Below the pieces are notes generated by a model. It made no database searches and was not told where the DNA came from. It saw only the letters and a program-made list of their open reading frames with translations. From positions 1 through 26,515 of the IMG/VR virus record IMGVR_UViG_3300047476_000887: a DNA stretch of 26,515 bases, one strand, 5' to 3'. The stretch is from a virus. This document shows, one piece after another, positions 9,889 through 26,515 of the stretch (within the stretch, counting starts at the first letter, position 1; each line of letters begins with the position of its first letter). The translations under genes were made by a program, and so were the position numbers.

Positions 9889-10429
9889 ACAATATACCTT
9901 AAAGATTCTTAAAATGCTGGCGACAGATTTTAAGGATATGGATGCATACAAGCAGGGTATTATTGATGCAGATGGTAAAGTTCTTAAGAAGTCTTATCAA
10001 TTAAAGACTCAGAAAGAACGCCAAGCATATACTTATCTAGATCGCCTTATTGTTATTTTAAAGAAGGCAATCAAACAAAACGAAAAGCGTGGAGACTTTA
10101 CTCTTACACGTGCTCTTTCTCCAGCTCTATGGGTTGTTCGTGAACAGCTTGAAGCTGGTTCAAAAGCAACAGTTGATGTTGAATCTAAGTATAATAAGTT
10201 GTATGATTTAGATATTTGTTTAGCAGAAGAAGAAATTATTGTTGAACAATTTCTAAAAGAAGACGGTGGTGCACCAGCTGCCGCTGTTGTATCTTCTCCA
10301 ACAAATAACACTATGGGTGTTGCTGGTCTTCGCGCTGATGATGGTCCAGTTGTACATCAAAAAGATATTAAGAAGTTTAGAACAATGGCAAGACGTTCTA
10401 TGCCAAAGTTAAAAGAGGTTAAACCATAA
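9869..10429 (+). CDS. Conserved-type phage protein of unknown function
   Basis: The 186-residue protein has an N-terminal helical region containing FKDMDAYKQGIIDADGKVLKK, a pattern I recall from unknown T4-like proteins. An acidic segment (DLDICLAEEEIIVEQF), an Ala/Pro linker and a basic C-terminus (KKFRTMARRSMPKLKEVK) follow. No enzymatic motif is seen. AAGGA (9855-9859) lies nine bases before ATG 9869, inside the end of the previous gene. The stop overlaps the start of the i-spanin gene (TAATG). A virion or assembly role is possible from context but not shown. Confidence 0.6.
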   Translation: MNQLLDRQYTLKILKMLATDFKDMDAYKQGIIDADGKVLKKSYQLKTQKERQAYTYLDRLIVILKKAIKQNEKRGDFTLTRALSPALWVVREQLEAGSKATVDVESKYNKLYDLDICLAEEEIIVEQFLKEDGGAPAAAVVSSPTNNTMGVAGLRADDGPVVHQKDIKKFRTMARRSMPKLKEVKP

Positions 10430-10857
10430 TGTGGATTCTTGACTTCCTTCCTGGTTGGATTTTTACTCTAATCACTCTAGCTGGCGCAGGTGCTTACCTA
10501 GTCACGGAAGTATTAGGTAAAGTTCCTTTTGTTGCTCAATACCTGCGTGCTATTCGTGCTGGTGCTATCATTGCGCTAGTTTTTGGCGTTTACATGATGG
10601 GTGGATCGGCAAATCAAGAAAAGTGGGAAGCAAGAGTAAAAGAACTAGAGGCAAAGGTAGCAATCTCTGAAGAGCAAAGTAAGAATGCTAATGCTAAAAT
10701 TGATTCCAAGATAAAAGAAAAGACAAAAGTTATCAAGGAAACAGAGTACATTATACAAGAAAAGATTGTACAGATAAAAGAACAAATTGACGAGAAGTGT
10801 GAAATACCAGCTGAAGCAATTAAACTGCTAAATGAATCAGCGGAGGAAAGAAAATGA
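10429..10857 (+). CDS. Putative i-spanin (inner-membrane spanin, Rz-like)
   Basis: The 142-residue protein has two hydrophobic segments (about 8-27 and 43-60) and then a long charged coiled-coil region (about 62-130). It overlaps by four bases (ATGA) a small lipoprotein gene, the typical arrangement of two-component spanins. Spanins join inner and outer membranes during the last step of lysis in Gram-negative hosts. Two membrane segments instead of one is unusual compared with lambda Rz, but I recall this form in T4-like aquatic phages. The endolysin is about 12 kb away on the other strand. Confidence 0.75.
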   Translation: MWILDFLPGWIFTLITLAGAGAYLVTEVLGKVPFVAQYLRAIRAGAIIALVFGVYMMGGSANQEKWEARVKELEAKVAISEEQSKNANAKIDSKIKEKTKVIKETEYIIQEKIVQIKEQIDEKCEIPAEAIKLLNESAEERK

Positions 10858-11114
10858 AATACACACTATTAATTTTGCCATTCCTATTAGTTGGCTGTAT
10901 GGCCACTCCCGTTAAACGTAATTTTCCTGAGATGCCACAAGAACTAAAGGTAGCTTGCCCTGATTTGCAAAAGATTAAAAACGATGCAAAACTAAGCGAT
11001 GTTATCTCAACTGTTTCTTCTAACTACTCACAATACCATGAATGTCGTGCAAGAGTAGATGCTTGGAACCAGTGGTACAATACTCAGAAAGAAATATTCG
11101 AAAGTGTAAAATAA
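10854..11114 (+). CDS. Putative o-spanin (outer-membrane lipoprotein, Rz1-like)
   Basis: The 86-residue protein starts with a lipoprotein signal peptide. The hydrophobic stretch ends in LVGC, with Cys15 as the lipidation site. The mature part has a Cys pair and a CRARVDAWNQWYNTQ segment near residues 61-75, typical of o-spanins in this phage group. AGGAAAG precedes ATG 10854, which overlaps the end of the i-spanin gene. The two products would form the periplasm-spanning complex. Unlike lambda Rz1, it is not nested inside its partner and is not Pro-rich. Confidence 0.8.
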   Translation: MKYTLLILPFLLVGCMATPVKRNFPEMPQELKVACPDLQKIKNDAKLSDVISTVSSNYSQYHECRARVDAWNQWYNTQKEIFESVK

Positions 11115-16816: not shown

Positions 16817-16963
16817 ATGGCAACTAAACATTTCGAATGCGAACAATGTGAGGCACGTGGTAAGATTATTCTCAAGTCAGATGAAAGACTAGAGGATATT
16901 GTTTACTGCCCTGTATGTTCAGCAGATATTTACGAAGAAGAAGACTATGATGAAGAAGAATAA
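16817..16963 (+). CDS. 48-residue zinc-ribbon protein
   Basis: A short ORF follows AGGAGAAG (16807-16814) and encodes 48 residues. Two CxxC pairs (Cys8/Cys11 in CEQC, Cys31/Cys34 in CPVC) form a zinc ribbon, and the tail is acidic (EEEDYDEEE). Zinc-ribbon microproteins often bind nucleic acid or polymerase. The acidic tail could mimic DNA or mediate protein contact, but that is speculation. It is the last gene of the primase-nrd block. Its last 19 bases overlap the 3' end of the minus-strand homing endonuclease gene. Confidence 0.75.
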   Translation: MATKHFECEQCEARGKIILKSDERLEDIVYCPVCSADIYEEEDYDEEE

Positions 16964-17532
16964 ACTCTTCCTCTAAACCACCCTTCACCTGGACACTGCC
17001 TGGACATCATGGTATTACCTTTACCATCATTCCACCAGTGTCCACCTTTCTTTGCGTTTGATATGGCAGCTGAGTGTTCAGTAGACCTTATCTTACCTGT
17101 TAGAGCATTTTTAATTTTTATTTTATGTTCTTCAGATTTATTTTTAGTATTACCTTTTGCGTTTTTGTTACCAATTAACTTCTTTCGCATTGACGCACGT
17201 TTAGGTAATCCTTTTTGGGGTGTGCCAAAGAACCCATCAACCGTAGCGTAAGCCATATTGATATACAACGTAGATGTGACAACTGATAATGCCTTCTGAA
17301 AAGATAGTTCTTTATCTGTTGCTTCTTTTCTCGTATTGTGTTTCGTTAAAACTCTAGTCTTGAATAGGTGTGGGCTTTCTTTTAACTCTTTCTTCCAAAT
17401 ATCTTTATATATTTTAGATGAAACAGTTCCCCGATATCCGCTTTCTACCCTAGAAACGCTAGATGATCCAATATAAAATGGTGGTAGTTTACTGCCAGAA
17501 TAGACAGTTAGATAAGTACAATAAATAGTCAT
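16945..17532 (-). CDS. GIY-YIG homing endonuclease with NUMOD3-type DNA-binding region
   Basis: The 195-residue protein begins with a GIY-YIG-type catalytic module: YLTVYSG and FYIGSS (residues 7-24), GYRGTVSSKIY and, near 68-76, the Arg and Glu of TRKEATDKE. A basic NUMOD3-like segment follows (SEEHKIKIKNALTGK, then ISNAKKG). The C-terminal GHWWNDG and WFRGRVY pattern is also typical of phage homing enzymes. It is a free-standing gene on the strand opposite to its neighbours, next to nrdB, a frequent target neighbourhood of such elements. It has its own TATAAATA late promoter. The catalytic Tyr, Arg and Glu positions look intact, so it may be active. Confidence 0.8.
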   Translation of the reverse strand: MTIYCTYLTVYSGSKLPPFYIGSSSVSRVESGYRGTVSSKIYKDIWKKELKESPHLFKTRVLTKHNTRKEATDKELSFQKALSVVTSTLYINMAYATVDGFFGTPQKGLPKRASMRKKLIGNKNAKGNTKNKSEEHKIKIKNALTGKIRSTEHSAAISNAKKGGHWWNDGKGNTMMSRQCPGEGWFRGRVYSSSS

Positions 17533-17615: not shown

Positions 17616-18041
17616 ATGTGGATTTATCAAGAGCAAGAGGTAAAAGAATTACCAGAAGATTGTGTGGGTTTTGTATATTTGATAGTTAATATGACCAATA
17701 ATCGCAAATACATTGGTAAGAAACTTGCTAAGTTTAGTAAGACCTCTTACAAGACCGTTACACTTAAAAACGGCACTAAAAAGAAAAAGAAAATCAAGTC
17801 AAAGATTGACTCTGATTGGCTAGAATATTATGGTTCTAGCATAGAACTAAATAAAGATGTAGAGCTCCTTGGGAAAGACAACTTTCGCAGGGAGATTTTG
17901 TTTTTATGTAAATCAAAAGCCGAATGTTCTTACATAGAGGCTCGCGAGCAATTTACTAGAAGGGTGTTGGAAACTACAGACTATTACAACGGGCAAATTT
18001 CTGTTCGAGTTCATGGTTCTCACATATTAAATAAGCTATGA
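17616..18041 (+). CDS. GIY-YIG domain nuclease, conserved phage type
   Basis: The 141-residue protein has GFVYLIVNMTNNRKYIGKK near residues 19-37, the two GIY-YIG strands. The Lys-rich stretch after it leads to DSDWLEYYGSS, then ILFLCKSKAECSYIEAREQF, which carries a conserved acidic residue of the domain. It lacks NUMOD or other homing DNA-binding motifs. From memory it resembles a protein widespread in T4-like phages and often labelled Seg-like; a resident nuclease seems as likely as a mobile one. I use ATG 17616 because the upstream GTG at 17562 lies in a predicted hairpin and adds an unrelated-looking extension. SD is poor. Its stop overlaps the next ATG (ATGATGA). Confidence 0.7.
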   Translation: MWIYQEQEVKELPEDCVGFVYLIVNMTNNRKYIGKKLAKFSKTSYKTVTLKNGTKKKKKIKSKIDSDWLEYYGSSIELNKDVELLGKDNFRREILFLCKSKAECSYIEAREQFTRRVLETTDYYNGQISVRVHGSHILNKL

Positions 18042-19096
18042 TGACATATTTACTTTTCGGAACAGCGTTAGGTTTATCTGCAGTGGCAGCATACTATTCT
18101 ATCATGGGAATGGTAGCTATCTTTGCAGCCGCAGCAATTCCGATCTTCATCATGGGTTCTCTACTAGAGGTGTCCAAGTTAGTTGTTGCTTCATGGTTAT
18201 ATCGTAACTGGAAGCAAATTCCAAAACTAATGATGGCATACTTTACTATTGCGTTAGTAGTATTGATGATGCTAACGTCAATGGGTATCTTTGGTTATCT
18301 ATCTAAGGCTCACTTAGACCAAGCAGTTCCTACTGGTGAATCTACAGCAAAGCTATCATTGATAGATGAGAAAATTAAAACAGAAAAGGAAAACTTAAAT
18401 GCAGCTCGTTCAGAACTTAATCAATTGGATCAGCAGGTTAATCAAACCCTCAGTCGAACAACCGATGCAGCAGGAGCCGATCGTTCAATTGCCATCCGTC
18501 GAGGACAACAAAAAGACCGAGCCAGAATCCTTAACGAAATCGGCAACACGCAAACCAAGATCGCATCCCTCCAAGAACAACGTGCCCCGATCGCCTCAGA
18601 AGTCCGTAAAGTCGAAGCCGAAGTCGGACCAATCAAATACATCGCAGCCCTTATCTACGAAGAAAGCGCCAGCGAGGAAATCCTCGAGAAAGCCGTCCGA
18701 ATCGTAATTATGATGATTGTTGCCGTGTTCGATCCGCTAGCAGTTCTACTACTGATAGCAGCGAACTGGCAATTACGTAAGGATAAAGATATACAACAGT
18801 TACCAAAAGAACCTGTAGAAACAGAGTCTTATAAACCAGACGCATGGGTAGCTGATGTAACTTTTCCAGACCCAGAGCCAGAGATCTCAGAAGAATCTCT
18901 GGCGTTTGAAGAAGAAAAAGAACAACCTAAAAAAGACTGGGAGCCTGAACTTTATAAAAGAGTTCAGCCTGAAGAAAAAGTTTTAGGAAGATTTGAAAGC
19001 GACCTATTAGAACAAGAAAGAAAACGCAAGTTGAACTCTTTTCTTAATAAGGTAGGAACAATTGAACAAGAAGTAGAAAACTTACAGAAAAAATGA
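18038..19096 (+). CDS. Four-segment membrane protein with cytoplasmic-type coiled coil, unknown function
   Basis: The 352-residue protein has hydrophobic segments at about 4-20, 22-44, 66-88 and 212-235. A long coiled-coil-like region (about 105-205, rich in E, Q, K, R) lies between segments three and four, and a charged acidic tail follows. A LLEVSKLVVASWLYRNWK block between segments two and three looks conserved-type; from memory similar proteins occur in aquatic T4-like phages, function unknown. Codons 136-222 (about 18443-18704) use C at the third position far more than the rest of the gene and coincide with an ORF in the +1 frame (next entry). Start overlaps the previous stop; end overlaps the next ATG. 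Confidence 0.7.
   Translation: MMTYLLFGTALGLSAVAAYYSIMGMVAIFAAAAIPIFIMGSLLEVSKLVVASWLYRNWKQIPKLMMAYFTIALVVLMMLTSMGIFGYLSKAHLDQAVPTGESTAKLSLIDEKIKTEKENLNAARSELNQLDQQVNQTLSRTTDAAGADRSIAIRRGQQKDRARILNEIGNTQTKIASLQEQRAPIASEVRKVEAEVGPIKYIAALIYEESASEEILEKAVRIVIMMIVAVFDPLAVLLLIAANWQLRKDKDIQQLPKEPVETESYKPDAWVADVTFPDPEPEISEESLAFEEEKEQPKKDWEPELYKRVQPEEKVLGRFESDLLEQERKRKLNSFLNKVGTIEQEVENLQKK
18399..18707 (+). CDS. Candidate overprinted gene in the +1 frame of the membrane protein (102 aa)
   Basis: ATG 18399 is preceded by AAAAGGA (18384-18390), eight bases away, and opens a 102-codon ORF in the +1 frame of the gene at 18038. The product has an amphipathic start (LVQNLINWISRLI) and a long Ser/Lys/Pro/Arg-rich tail resembling histone-H1 or disordered nucleic-acid-binding tails. 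Over the same span the host gene switches to C-ending codons (GCC, ATC, GTC). That switch puts Ser and Pro, rather than Leu and Phe, in the +1 frame, and it stops at this ORF's stop codon. This supports dual coding, but a GC-rich recombined segment is an alternative. Confidence 0.45.
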   Translation: MQLVQNLINWISRLIKPSVEQPMQQEPIVQLPSVEDNKKTEPESLTKSATRKPRSHPSKNNVPRSPQKSVKSKPKSDQSNTSQPLSTKKAPARKSSRKPSES

Positions 19097-19248: not shown

Positions 19249-19767
19249 ATGAACAAGAAGATCGCCACAGCGGTGCTTTTTGTCATGACTACATCTTATG
19301 CGATGGCTCAGGCTATCGTAACTGACTCGACTAGTAGATCTACCACAGATTCTAACTCAACCAGCACTACGACTGTTAAGTCACCGCCACCAACTGCAGT
19401 GGCTCCTGCAATTACCACAATTAACAACGATGTCTGCGCAGTGGCAGCATCAGGTGCAGTACAAACTCAAATTCTTGGTATCTCCATGGGTGGTACACAA
19501 AGAGATTTAAACTGCGAAAGAATCAAACTATCCAAGAACCTGTATGACATGGGTATGAAAGTAGCTGCCGTTGCTACTCTATGTCAAGACGACCGTGTGT
19601 TTAAAGCCATGTTAGACGCAGGTACACCCTGTCCTGTTCAGGGTAAGATTGGCGAACAGGCTAAGGAAATCTGGATTGTAAAAGGACGTATCAAAGAAGA
19701 CGATATCGTTCAACTTCCTGAAAAGAAAAAAGAAGAGCCAATTAGAGAAACTGGCGAGAAAAAATGA
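19249..19767 (+). CDS. Exported protein of unknown function
   Basis: The 172-residue protein starts with a Sec signal peptide (MNKK, hydrophobic core, AMA before residue 21). A Ser/Thr-rich linker (about 25-50) is followed by a domain with four cysteines and the segments ISMGGTQRDLNCERIKLSK and YDMGMKVAAVATLCQDDRVF, then a charged Lys/Glu tail. The four cysteines could form disulphides in the periplasm. From memory the domain occurs in aquatic phages without known function. AAAGGG at 19237-19242 is the SD and is part of a predicted RNA fold. The gene overlaps the next by four bases, suggesting the two exported proteins work together. Confidence 0.7.
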   Translation: MNKKIATAVLFVMTTSYAMAQAIVTDSTSRSTTDSNSTSTTTVKSPPPTAVAPAITTINNDVCAVAASGAVQTQILGISMGGTQRDLNCERIKLSKNLYDMGMKVAAVATLCQDDRVFKAMLDAGTPCPVQGKIGEQAKEIWIVKGRIKEDDIVQLPEKKKEEPIRETGEKK

Positions 19768-21494
19768 TTAAGTTTCTAGTAGCAGTAGTTCTACTAGGCA
19801 CTTCTTTATTCTCTAATGCTGAAATAGTTACAGTGCCTATCCCTGGTGCCCCAGGTCTTTCAGTGACCGTGGGTACTGGGGTCAACGCACTTCCACTTCA
19901 GGATATTAGATCAAATCCAAATGTAGTAAATATAACATCAGGTGATGATGATTATAGAAACGTACCTCTGGGTTTTGATTTTCCTTATTGGGGAAGAACG
20001 TTTAACAACTCTTGGGCTATGACCAATGGTATGGTTACCTTTGTAGATCCAACACAATCTGGAATTTACGGTGCATGCTGTTCAGGTGTTGATCTTAGTA
20101 CCACTAGAGATACTCGTTGGAATTACTCTATCTTTGCAGTTCATACTGATCTATACAGCTGGAATGGTCAAAACCAATATTACCTAAGAGAGAATAATAC
20201 TATGACTTATGGTTGGTATAACCTAAGTCAATGCTGTTCTAGTAACGGTGGTAACAGTTTTGAAATTAAGATTAATTCATCTGGCGGTGTTGATACTCGA
20301 ATTGCAGGCGCTCTTGTAAACTGGAACGCTGTAACTTCAGGTATGTCAGGAGACTTGTCAAAAGGTGAGTATTATCAGTATTATCATGGGCAGGGTTTAA
20401 ACATAAACACAACTACAGGTGGTGTTAGTTGGAATACAATAGGTGGTTTTACTGGCACAGACATTTGTTTATCTGATCCGCTATCTTCACCATCATGCCC
20501 AGGATATTTTACAGCGCAGTGTACGGTTAGTGTTTTGTATAATCCTAGCTGCCCAGGATATGCGGCAGCATATTTTACACAACAGTGTTCATTAAACTCA
20601 TTGTATGATATAAACTGCCCAGGATATGCAGCAGCTTATCTAAATTATCAGTGTTCTGTTAGCCCACTATATTCAACTACATGCGAGGGATATGAAAATG
20701 CGTACTTCAATCAGCAATGCTCAGCAAATGCACTATACTCAACTTCTTGTCCAGGATATGCTGAAGCGTACCATGCACAACAGTGCTCTGTTAATGGACT
20801 TTACTCAACAACTTGTCCTAATTATGCTACAGCTTACGCCACCCAACAAGCGTTAAGAAGAACAAACAACCCACCTTCAACTACAAGTATAACCACAAAT
20901 GCTACCCAAGATTCTTCTAGTAACGTATCTGTTCCTGTTGTTTCTGATAGTAATGTTAACCAAGTTATAACTTCAACTGCAACATCAGCATCTCCTGCTG
21001 CCGCTGCAACGGCTACAGTTCCACTTGTAGCTGCACCTGTTACAACAGCTGCTGCGCCGACCGCAAAAGCAGAGGAGAAAAAGCCAGATGCTACTAGCCC
21101 AAGTTCACCATCGTCTACAACTGCTCAGAATACTTCGACTGAGACTAAAGCAGCTGCGCCAACTGCAAGACAAGAGTTACAAGCAAAACGCGAAGCTGTC
21201 GCCAGAGCCAAGGCTGTAGAAGAAGGAAAGAACCTTGCTTCAAATATGGGTAAGGTTGCTGATATAGAAACACAAAAACAGATTCAAAACGTTGTAATTG
21301 CTGCAATGGGCTTTACACCAGGGTTTGACGTATATTCAACAGTTGTTATAAAAGACGTTGTTGGGTATAAACCTTTTACAGTCTATAATAATCAAAATAA
21401 TGTAGACAATAGAAGATTAGGAATGGGTCTTTATGGACCATCTGATAAACTACATAACGAGATAATCGAGTCTCAATATAACAGAGGAAATTAA
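19764..21494 (+). CDS. Exported protein with nidogen-like beta domain and six Cys repeats
   Basis: The 576-residue protein has a signal peptide (cleavage after SNA, residue 19). A beta domain (about 60-230) contains PLGFDFPYWG and TNGMVTFVD, resembling nidogen-type extracellular domains. It has CC pairs at two sites. Residues 235-362 form six tandem units of about 22 residues with the pattern C-x4-LY-x3-C-P-GY-x2-AY-x2-QQ. An Ala/Thr/Ser/Pro-rich region (about 365-465) and a conserved-looking C-terminal part (about 470-576, partly helical) follow. Export, many cysteines and repeats suggest a disulphide-bonded cell-surface or periplasmic protein. Its role for the phage is unknown; envelope modification or exclusion of other phages is conceivable. 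Confidence 0.7.
   Translation: MIKFLVAVVLLGTSLFSNAEIVTVPIPGAPGLSVTVGTGVNALPLQDIRSNPNVVNITSGDDDYRNVPLGFDFPYWGRTFNNSWAMTNGMVTFVDPTQSGIYGACCSGVDLSTTRDTRWNYSIFAVHTDLYSWNGQNQYYLRENNTMTYGWYNLSQCCSSNGGNSFEIKINSSGGVDTRIAGALVNWNAVTSGMSGDLSKGEYYQYYHGQGLNINTTTGGVSWNTIGGFTGTDICLSDPLSSPSCPGYFTAQCTVSVLYNPSCPGYAAAYFTQQCSLNSLYDINCPGYAAAYLNYQCSVSPLYSTTCEGYENAYFNQQCSANALYSTSCPGYAEAYHAQQCSVNGLYSTTCPNYATAYATQQALRRTNNPPSTTSITTNATQDSSSNVSVPVVSDSNVNQVITSTATSASPAAAATATVPLVAAPVTTAAAPTAKAEEKKPDATSPSSPSSTTAQNTSTETKAAAPTARQELQAKREAVARAKAVEEGKNLASNMGKVADIETQKQIQNVVIAAMGFTPGFDVYSTVVIKDVVGYKPFTVYNNQNNVDNRRLGMGLYGPSDKLHNEIIESQYNRGN
20466..20849 (+). repeat. Six tandem Cys-rich coding repeats (54 bp then 5 x 66 bp)
   Basis: Units start at 20466, 20520, 20586, 20652, 20718 and 20784. 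The first is 18 codons and the other five are exactly 22 codons. Each has two cysteines ten residues apart, plus LY, GY and AY positions. DNA identity between units is only moderate, so they are old enough to have diverged while keeping their length. Confidence 0.85.
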
Positions 21495-24268: not shown

Positions 24269-25243
24269 ATGAAAACTGGTATTTTTATTGGGCGATTCCA
24301 GCCCATACATCAAGGTCATATCCACGCTCTGGGCGTGGCTGCTTCCCAAGTACAGAAACTGTACATCCTCGTTGGTTCGGCTAATCAATGCCGTTCAATT
24401 CGCAATCCCTGGACATTTACAGAACGTAAGCAAATGCTTCAACTGCAGTTGCATGCCCAGCGCATTAGCAACTATGAAATCATCCCACTAAACGATTATC
24501 GCTACTCAGACACACAATGGATGTCTGATGTTCGTGCAACTATTGAACATTATGCCATGGGTTCTCCAACCTTGTTTGGTCATATGAAAGAAGGCAACGA
24601 TTATCTTAAGTGGTTTCCTGAATTAAAATTTAAATCTATCGAGGCGCAGCATTCGGTAGACGCAACAGAGATTCGTACTCGAATGTTTGTTGAGAACGAT
24701 CCTTTGATGCCTGAAACTGTCCGTGGAGACTATGCATTCTATCAAAAAGAAAAACAAACCTTTGCTAACTATCCATTCCCCGAAACACTCAACTTCAACT
24801 GTTCCGATGCAATCCTTGAATGTCAAGGTCACATCTTGCTTATCCAACGCAAGTTTAGCCCAGGAAAAGGTGCTTGGGCACTTCCAGGTGGTTTTCGCAA
24901 TCAGCGAGAAACATTTCTTGACTGTGCCATCCGCGAGTTGATTGAAGAAACAAACGTGCGAGTTCCAGAGAAAGTTCTGCGTGGCTCAATCGTAAAGACC
25001 GAACTGTTTGATAATCCATATCGATCGTTTGGTATTCCCCGAAACACCATGGCTGTGTACATGCGTATTAGTCCAAACCCTGACTACTCGCTGCCACGTG
25101 CCAACGGTGCCGATGATGCTGCTCTGTGCAAGTGGGTGCCACTTACTGATGCACTGAACAACATCGAAATGTACGATGATCACAAAGACATCGTAACAAA
25201 AGTAACAGGTGTCATGCCGATGCCTGCATTTGCAAAACTGTAA
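24269..25243 (+). CDS. natV: Bifunctional NMN adenylyltransferase / Nudix hydrolase
   Basis: The 324-residue protein combines two domains. The N-terminal NMN adenylyltransferase has GRFQPIHQGH at residues 8-17 and an ATEIRTRM segment near 131 that replaces the SxTxxR motif. The C-terminal Nudix domain has its box starting at Gly208, with Glu214, Arg222-Glu223 and Glu226-Glu227. The usual Gly near the end of the box is Asn. The first domain makes NAD from NMN and ATP; the second likely cleaves ADP-ribose or related dinucleotides. The same fusion is known as NatV in vibriophage KVP40 and in some cyanobacteria. AGGAG precedes ATG 24269 and nadV follows after ten bases. Confidence 0.9.
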   Translation: MKTGIFIGRFQPIHQGHIHALGVAASQVQKLYILVGSANQCRSIRNPWTFTERKQMLQLQLHAQRISNYEIIPLNDYRYSDTQWMSDVRATIEHYAMGSPTLFGHMKEGNDYLKWFPELKFKSIEAQHSVDATEIRTRMFVENDPLMPETVRGDYAFYQKEKQTFANYPFPETLNFNCSDAILECQGHILLIQRKFSPGKGAWALPGGFRNQRETFLDCAIRELIEETNVRVPEKVLRGSIVKTELFDNPYRSFGIPRNTMAVYMRISPNPDYSLPRANGADDAALCKWVPLTDALNNIEMYDDHKDIVTKVTGVMPMPAFAKL

Positions 25244-25253
25244 GGAGCTTACT

Positions 25254-26515
25254 ATGAAACTCGCAAAATCAATTATCTTGAATACTGACTCGTACAAAGT
25301 CTCGATGTTCAAACAATATCCTGCTGGCACTACTGGTGTTTATAGTTATATTGAATCTCGTGGTGGTCGTTATGACCAAACTGTGATGTTCGGACTGCAG
25401 GCATTTATCAAGGAGTACCTACTTGACCCAATTACTCAAGCCGACATTGATACTGCGGATGCAATACTTACTGCTCACGGAGAACCCTTCAACCGAGAAG
25501 GATGGGAATACATTCTACGTGTGCACAACGGCTACCTTCCAGTCGTTATCCGTGCTGTACCTGAAGGCACTGTGGTTCCTGTTAAAAATGTACTTGCAAC
25601 AATTGAAAATACGGATCCTCAATGTTTTTGGTTGACCACTTATCTTGAAACTGCCCTATTGCGTGCAGTATGGTATCCTACCACTGTATCTACTCAATCT
25701 TACACAATCAAGAAAGTAATTCTTGACTATTTGGAGCGAACTGGTGACCCTACAACTATTAATTTTAAGTTGCACGATTTTGGTGCTCGCGGTGTGTCTA
25801 GCATGGAGTCTGCTGGGATTGGTGGAGCCGCTCACCTCGTTAACTTTATGGGCACAGATACTATTACGGGCATTTTGTATGCTCGTGAGTATTACAACGC
25901 TGGCATTGCTGGGTTCTCCATCCCTGCTGCCGAGCATAGTACAATCACTTCTTGGGGTCGTGACAACGAGGTAAAAGCATATGCTAACATGGTTACTCAA
26001 TTCGCCAAACCTGGTTCCATTGTTGCTGTTGTCAGCGACAGCTATGATGTATATAATGCCGCTTCCAAGCTCTGGGGTGAGCAACTACGTCAACAAGTTA
26101 TTGATAGTGGTGCAACTATTGTTATTCGTCCTGACAGTGGCGATCCTGTTGATGTTAACCGTCAATTGATTGAGATTCTTGGTCAGAAGTTTGGTTACAC
26201 TGTCAACGCCAAGGGATTCAAAGTGCTGAACAATGTTCGTCTTATCCAAGGCGACGGTGTCAATGAATTGACTATTCGTAGCATTCTCGGTGCCTTCATG
26301 GCGATGGGATGGTCAGCTGACAACATCGCTTTTGGTATGGGTGGTGCTCTGCTCCAACAAGTGGATCGTGACACTCAAAAGTTCGCAATGAAGTGTTCTG
26401 CTGCATTGATTAATGGCGAGTGGATTGATGTACAGAAAGATCCTATCACTGACTCAGGTAAGAAATCTAAAGCTGGTCGAGTAACACTTTGGAAAGCTGG
26501 TGGTGAGTGGGTAAG
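25254..26515 (+). CDS. nadV: Nicotinamide phosphoribosyltransferase (3' end outside window)
   Basis: About 420 codons are visible without a stop; the family is about 460-500 long, so most is present. Motifs match the NAMPT/NadV family: KLHDFGARGVSSME, IPAAEHSTITSWGR (His228, the position of the catalytic His of human NAMPT), VSDSYDVYNA and RPDSGDP (Arg292, Asp294). It converts nicotinamide and PRPP to NMN, which the preceding enzyme turns into NAD. AAGGAG (25242-25247) is the SD. The two genes form a complete two-step salvage route, as in KVP40. This region is richer in G and C than most of the window. Confidence 0.95.
   Translation, partial: MKLAKSIILNTDSYKVSMFKQYPAGTTGVYSYIESRGGRYDQTVMFGLQAFIKEYLLDPITQADIDTADAILTAHGEPFNREGWEYILRVHNGYLPVVIRAVPEGTVVPVKNVLATIENTDPQCFWLTTYLETALLRAVWYPTTVSTQSYTIKKVILDYLERTGDPTTINFKLHDFGARGVSSMESAGIGGAAHLVNFMGTDTITGILYAREYYNAGIAGFSIPAAEHSTITSWGRDNEVKAYANMVTQFAKPGSIVAVVSDSYDVYNAASKLWGEQLRQQVIDSGATIVIRPDSGDPVDVNRQLIEILGQKFGYTVNAKGFKVLNNVRLIQGDGVNELTIRSILGAFMAMGWSADNIAFGMGGALLQQVDRDTQKFAMKCSAALINGEWIDVQKDPITDSGKKSKAGRVTLWKAGGEWV

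Follow-up and report, generated by a model that had tools for sequence, protein, structure and literature searches.

A probable phage gene overprinted in the +1 frame on the coiled-coil segment of a membrane-protein gene

A stretch of 26,515 bases from an uncultivated virus, referred to here as the window, carries a +1-frame ORF inside a phage membrane-protein gene, and comparison with related phages leaves little doubt that this ORF is a genuine gene, coding for protein and overprinted on the part of the host gene that specifies the coiled coil (Table 1). That the span is coding at all is, taken on its own, close to certain on the same comparative grounds, and internal initiation at the ATG at 18399 is very probable. 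Across aligned homologues, the +1 start, its Shine-Dalgarno (SD) site, the open frame, the residue classes and the stop are shown to be under purifying selection in many related phages, so far as selection can be read from sequence comparison. The embedded ORF represents a new overprinted phage gene family; overprinting itself is ordinary in kind.

Table 1. Features of the overprinted locus, in window coordinates
Feature	Position	Strand	Remarks
Host gene, 352-aa uncharacterised protein	18038..19096	+	ORF; no Pfam model at its cutoff
Shine-Dalgarno (SD) AAAAGGA of the embedded gene	18384..18390	+	8 nt upstream of ATG 18399
+1-frame TAA stop abutting the embedded ATG	18396..18398	+	
Probable embedded +1-frame gene	18399..18707	+	ATG, 102 aa, ~11.5 kDa, pI 10.5; sequence comparison
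Predicted amphipathic helix, residues 2-15	18402..18443	+	AlphaFold2; hydrophobic moment; top synonymous conservation, host codons 121-140
Basic motif SPxKSxKSKPK, residues 65-76	18591..18626	+	K73 and K75 invariant in 55/55
Lineage-specific C-terminal extension of the embedded protein	18626..18704	+	Host codons ~196-222; missing from short-stop relatives

The embedded frame, its host gene and its neighbourhood

The locus had been picked out by a sequence-only reading, which described a 102-codon +1 ORF opening with an ATG and preceded at eight bases by AAAAGGA. Both the coordinates and the spacing were confirmed, the stop codon lying at 18705-18707 and the frame being +1 relative to the host ORF. 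The G+C contents counted by hand in that reading (35/60 at 18541-18600 and 25/60 at 18301-18360) were identical on recounting. Over its whole length the embedded ORF has a G+C content of 50.2%, compared with 37.7% in the remainder of the host gene, and when a 309-nt frame was slid along the window, only 0.23% of 2621 stretches were equally G+C-rich.

The same reading claimed that from about 18443 the host frame turns to C-ending codons and that this switch stops at the +1 stop. Within the overlap, Ile is written ATC in 10 of 11 codons, Val GTC in 4 of 5 and Ala GCC in 9 of 15. Chance was assessed by holding the host protein fixed and drawing synonymous codons from the 8206 codons of the window in 20,000 trials. 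Thirty-eight of the 102 host codons in the overlap end in C, against 13.9 ± 3.2 after recoding, and 18 end in T, against 37.0 ± 4.3; no trial attained either of the observed counts. Host third positions are normal again past the +1 stop. The account needs one refinement: T is not depleted in the first ~20 host codons of the overlap, because the +1 product at that point is a hydrophobic/amphipathic helix. Since host third positions are +1 second positions, C instead of T alters the class of the +1 residue, and the earlier argument that this choice exchanges hydrophobic residues for Ser, Pro, Thr or Ala is mechanistically correct. Recoding left the span open in +1 in 0.035% of the 20,000 trials (probability 0.00035), while any +1 ATG ORF of at least 102 codons arose somewhere in the entire recoded host gene with a probability of 0.0006 (5000 trials). 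The longest nested +1 ATG ORF among 27 other forward genes tested has 74 codons.

The host protein comprises N-terminal hydrophobic helices, a coiled-coil hairpin at residues ~100-207, a hydrophobic helix at ~213-254 and a variable tail. Its topology was considered under the positive-inside rule for membrane proteins, and because Lys and Arg cluster at residues 47-65 and again beyond 245, we infer that the coiled coil is periplasmic. Searches of Pfam placed the window protein below the gathering cutoffs of both DUF4407 (15.9 bits, cutoff 31.3) and Tetraspanin (16.7 bits, cutoff 32.1); among 44 members of the host family, these models were matched at E ≤0.01 by 22 (best 1.2e-5) and 41 (best 2.1e-6), respectively. 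A fold search with the host-protein model retrieved nothing from the PDB at E 0.001 or better; of its six viral matches, three bear a printed name, each being an uncharacterised protein, and the other three are unnamed. Among annotated genes, Mosig_00157 of Pelagibacter phage Mosig EXVC030M, filed under Kyanoviridae, is the nearest relative of the host gene.

Elsewhere, the window encodes genes of a tailed phage, including primase-like, ribonucleotide reductase subunit, ThyX and GH19 endolysin-like genes and a spanin-like pair. The latter consists of overlapping i-spanin-like and o-spanin-lipoprotein-like genes at 10429-10857 and 10854-11114, the second of which matches an Rz-like spanin family. 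A homing-endonuclease-like gene with a NUMOD3 motif occupies 16945-17532 on the minus strand, and a SegE-like GIY-YIG gene (17616-18041) stands immediately ahead of the host gene and overlaps its start. A protein of 576 aa that looks secreted is encoded at 19764-21494; it contains degenerate repeats, centred on CPGYAxAY and lying between paired Cys, and no PHROGs or Pfam match and no tandem repeat in its DNA were found. Adjacent cytidylyltransferase-NUDIX and nicotinamide phosphoribosyltransferase genes (24269-25243 and 25254-26513) form an NAD salvage pair; such pathways can enable phages to restore NAD+ in the face of defences that deplete it.

Conservation of the +1 frame among relatives

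Host-gene loci were collected from two scans of viral contigs (41 and at least 80 loci, these being the most window-like ones). The set held 115 distinct host sequences with phage records included, or 113 once L105 and L113 were dropped as incomplete. To call the ORF, the +1 frame was translated from the aligned position onwards, and the product was scored with an HMM of 16 sequences. Sixty-six of the 113 scored at least 67 bits, the next score being 51. Homologues with an interrupted +1 frame, or with no ATG or SD, had been named beforehand as evidence against a gene; what was found is that these 66 all retain the ORF, their shared ATG falling at the aligned position and being preceded by an SD-like site. 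Reduction to <92% nucleotide identity left 99 representatives, namely 55 that carry the ORF (OLG+, ≥60 bits), 34 that do not (OLG-) and 10 ambiguous ones at 30 to 60 bits, which stand outside the two-class counts (L124, L089, L085, L088, L026, L090, L114, L038, L112 and L021). The OLG- set consists of 26 environmental sequences and eight named or uncultured phage records, and the embedded ORF is missing from all eight of these records. In total, 13 isolate or uncultured phage records match the host gene, and none of them is known to carry the ORF. Because the two classes were set by the +1 HMM, a plain comparison of codon bias between them is partly circular, which does not apply to the ATG and SD counts or to the comparison of long and short stops given below.

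The initiation signals are nearly invariant. The embedded start is ATG in 55/55 OLG+ representatives, host codon 120 being AAT or GAT followed by G; T-ending codons make up 459 of the 705 Asn/Asp codons in the flanks of the same host genes. At the SD site, the host Lys codon is AAG in 54 representatives and AGG appears in one, compared with AAG at 439 of 1554 Lys codons (28%) in these genes overall and at the corresponding site in 14 of 26 environmental OLG- sequences. In all 55 the third frame is interrupted, by 1 to 8 stops.

Synonymous conservation in homologues, the check that the sequence-only reading had proposed, is raised only inside the overlap. At columns with the same host residue, the fraction of OLG+ pairs using the same codon is 0.76 in host codons 121-140, 0.56 in 140-160, 0.71 in 160-180 and 0.71 in 180-195, against 0.38-0.46 in the flank before codon 114 and 0.44 after 223. 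The OLG- pairs yield 0.37-0.45 in the overlap segments, like their own flanks (1274 OLG+ and 181 OLG- pairs, identical for every segment), and OLG- host genes, which show none of the C-ending bias, serve as a natural control. Similarity of the +1 protein in OLG+ reaches 2.21 BLOSUM units per site, compared with 0.58 ± 0.03 for synonymously recoded hosts. For OLG- the corresponding values are 0.62 and 0.33 ± 0.05 per site, with 1.77 stops per sequence in the +1 frame against 3.68 in the null, and some OLG- sequences may be recent losers of the ORF. The ratio dNN/dNS in the +1 frame (0.59, 0.53-0.65, in the OLG+ overlap; 0.56, 0.52-0.62, in the upstream control) does not discriminate, because differing constraint on host positions 1 and 2 confounds it; the divergence filter also acts within each region, so that overlap and flank pairs differ. 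Together with the start signals, the codon data bear out the original suggestion of selection on two frames.

A scan with the alignment of the embedded protein, using the +1 protein alone, found 261 stretches that encode a relative; all 80 loci retained from these are embedded in the same host gene. No stand-alone copy was found: a six-frame search of the collected loci (20,703 segments) gave 189 HMM matches, every one of them embedded. A tblastn search of the embedded protein against a phage collection returned no match, a weak silence since low complexity was masked, and among 25 bacterial/MAG contigs with host-gene relatives the single +1-protein match was weak (L226, E 0.094). Relatives of the host protein lacking the embedded ORF also occur on large bacterial/MAG contigs (e.g., L206, L208, L221 and L228; WOR-3, Polynucleobacter, Bdellovibrionales).

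Presence of the ORF changes at least six times on the flank tree and likewise on the central tree (same 82 rows), for which reason a single gain followed by losses, repeated gains and recombinational spread are indistinguishable. Two sequences group differently on the two trees: L041 has an N-terminus of OLG- type and an OLG+ centre, and L078 the reverse, from which it follows that the central OLG-bearing segment recombines as a block. The gene may have arisen de novo or spread by recombination, in either case where the host protein is least constrained.

The embedded protein, its moving stop and competing readings

Embedded proteins of the OLG+ set are 75-110 residues long, with a pI of 9.9-11.5 (mean 10.4), a net charge of +8 to +20 (mean +11) and a tail composed of 18.8% Ser, 17.9% Lys and 14.4% Pro. 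AlphaFold2 predicted the single N-terminal helix and nothing else structured (mean pLDDT 62.8; 84 for residues 1-10 and 70 for 11-20). Constraint is strongest on this helix and on the basic motif. The hydrophobic moment of the helix averages 0.69, compared with 0.27 after shuffling; untranslated OLG- frames reach 0.57, so that the heptads of the host coiled coil supply much of its amphipathicity. Neither Pfam nor PHROGs yielded a match to the 102-aa protein at E up to 1, and no export signal is evident in it. Judged by its predicted features, the product is an orphan made up of a short amphipathic helix and a disordered, basic, Lys/Ser/Pro-rich tail. The earlier description of this tail as H1-like is apt for its composition (Lys/Pro/Ser-rich and basic) and does not extend to kinship, no described family being matched.

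Ribosomes would load at AAAAGGA within the host mRNA and start at the AUG, yielding two proteins from one message. Less securely, the product would be cytoplasmic, strongly basic and mostly disordered. The combination of a basic disordered tail with an amphipathic helix and no export signal suggests a cytoplasmic, membrane- or partner-bound, polyanion-binding protein: the N-terminal helix may lie against the inner membrane or bind a partner, for which the membrane protein encoded by the host gene is a candidate, and the Lys/Ser/Pro-rich tail may contact a polyanion, either nucleic acid or acidic lipid. This model of a membrane-associated basic accessory protein is tentative, and rather less likely than not to be right.

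A +1 gene placed in the coiled-coil part of an inner-membrane protein gene and encoding a Pro-rich product also recalls, by analogy with the arrangement described in PMC6139136, an o-spanin-like lysis partner that would serve the host protein as Rz1 serves Rz. Such a role is very unlikely here, given that Cys is absent from 55/55 embedded proteins, leaving no lipobox, that no signal sequence is evident and that the window has its separate spanin-like pair. An Rz1-type lipoprotein in particular is ruled out by the absence of Cys.

The A-rich run shortly ahead of the +1 ORF raises the question of a programmed frameshift, by which translation would pass from the host protein's N-terminal part into the +1 frame and yield a fusion. 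However, a +1 stop directly precedes the ATG in 44/55 OLG+ representatives and lies at most 12 codons away in the other 11, which makes such a fusion unlikely, and the ATG and the SD Lys codon are kept throughout OLG+ but for one SD codon, both being needless for a fusion. We consider this origin of the +1 product scarcely credible.

The position of the +1 stop differs between lineages. Twenty-nine short-stop representatives have it at host offset 565-622 and 16 long-stop ones at 652-694, a comparison that omits ten OLG+ rows with intermediate stops. Over host codons 204-222, C/(C+T) is 0.91 (148/162) in the long-stop and 0.31 (91/294) in the short-stop group, exceeding 0.6 in 16/16 and 0/29 genomes, respectively; over codons 160-192, which fall within both ORF lengths, the value is ~0.8-0.88 in both groups. 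Base choice also follows the +1 product: T occupies 37% of host third positions in codons 121-140 of OLG+ genomes, where the product is the hydrophobic/amphipathic helix, but falls to 5-10% when codons 160-222 are counted in the long-stop group. For the long versus short bias, the Fisher p of 8e-39 is overstated, because the rows are related and only one independent pair is well supported, too few for a sign test. The stop state changes five times on the tree, that one pair lying on well-supported branches, and long stops are found in at least two distant flank-tree groups, the window's own and that of L109/L115/L122. An exception to the stop-tracking rule is L098, a genome with an intermediate stop, which has 5 C and no T past it.

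This pattern decides against a GC-rich recombinant patch, acquired from a relative with other codon usage and leaving the +1 ORF open by accident; the sequence-only reading had named such a patch, extending beyond the ORF in relatives, as evidence that would count against a gene. The local G+C, in the top 0.23% of the window, and the recombination of the central segment seen in L041 and L078 agree with such a patch. A patch would not respect +1 stops, however, whereas the bias ends at each lineage's own stop, in differing places, and the helix codons show no loss of T; the patch is in effect excluded.

Synonymous constraint alone cannot separate RNA from protein, yet a conserved mRNA structure or binding site has next to no probability as its source, since the consensus structure of 16 OLG+ sequences reaches only -1.65 kcal/mol and lacks strong covariation, a double change occurring in 1 of its 11 pairs, the window segment folds no better than shuffles (z = 0.69), no Rfam match was found, and the constraint is ~200-300 nt long, with one frame stop-free and a base preference that shifts with the +1 residue class.

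Known overlapping genes and the meaning of the locus

The closest parallel in layout to the overprinted gene is lambda Rz/Rz1. Embedded two-component spanins of this type are routinely overlooked by gene callers, and there too the second gene lies wholly inside the +1 frame of an inner-membrane coiled-coil gene and encodes a small Pro-rich product, as described in PMC6139136. Unlike Rz1, the embedded protein has no Cys or lipobox and no evident export signal, and it bears a basic Lys/Ser tail and an amphipathic N-terminus; the host protein is a different one, and the phage carries separate spanin-like genes. Overlapping genes have been reported (PMC6195259) to be enriched in C, Ser and Pro and to encode disordered products, and overprinted viral genes as treated there are alike in placing a new frame on an old gene with such enrichment and disorder. 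The present case differs in that Lys rather than Arg dominates alongside Ser and Pro, in an A/T-rich large-phage genome, and in its lineage-specific stops tracked by codon bias. The olg1/olg2 genes of Pseudomonas phage Fc02, alternate-frame genes on one message for which an exclusion function is reported in PMC9936078, are unrelated to the embedded gene in position and context. Mosig_00157 encodes a protein of the same family as the host protein, 47% identical to it across residues 1-250, but has no embedded ORF, its longest +1 run being 45 codons and located elsewhere in the gene. In the PubMed Central subset searched, no report of the embedded gene was found.

More speculatively, and with a rather small chance of proving correct, the membrane protein and the embedded basic protein could together form one phage membrane machine, each supplying half of it, with a single message setting their fixed proportion and a single recombining cassette carrying both. 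They would then be a second, unrelated invention of the Rz/Rz1 layout for a use other than outer-membrane fusion, for example an inner-membrane timing or exclusion switch or the tethering of phage nucleic acid to that membrane.

The family is kept in hundreds of environmental viral contigs and has no Pfam or PHROGs model. Because the stop changes position from lineage to lineage against a host protein that remains in alignment, the locus offers a natural experiment in which selection on one frame sets the codon choice of the other, with the OLG- relatives as built-in controls. On the comparative evidence, the stop tracking is an unusually clear sign of two-frame selection in a large-genome phage. 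Where phage genes are A/T-rich, runs of C-ending codons can give away a hidden +1 gene, and this signal is one that could be scanned for.
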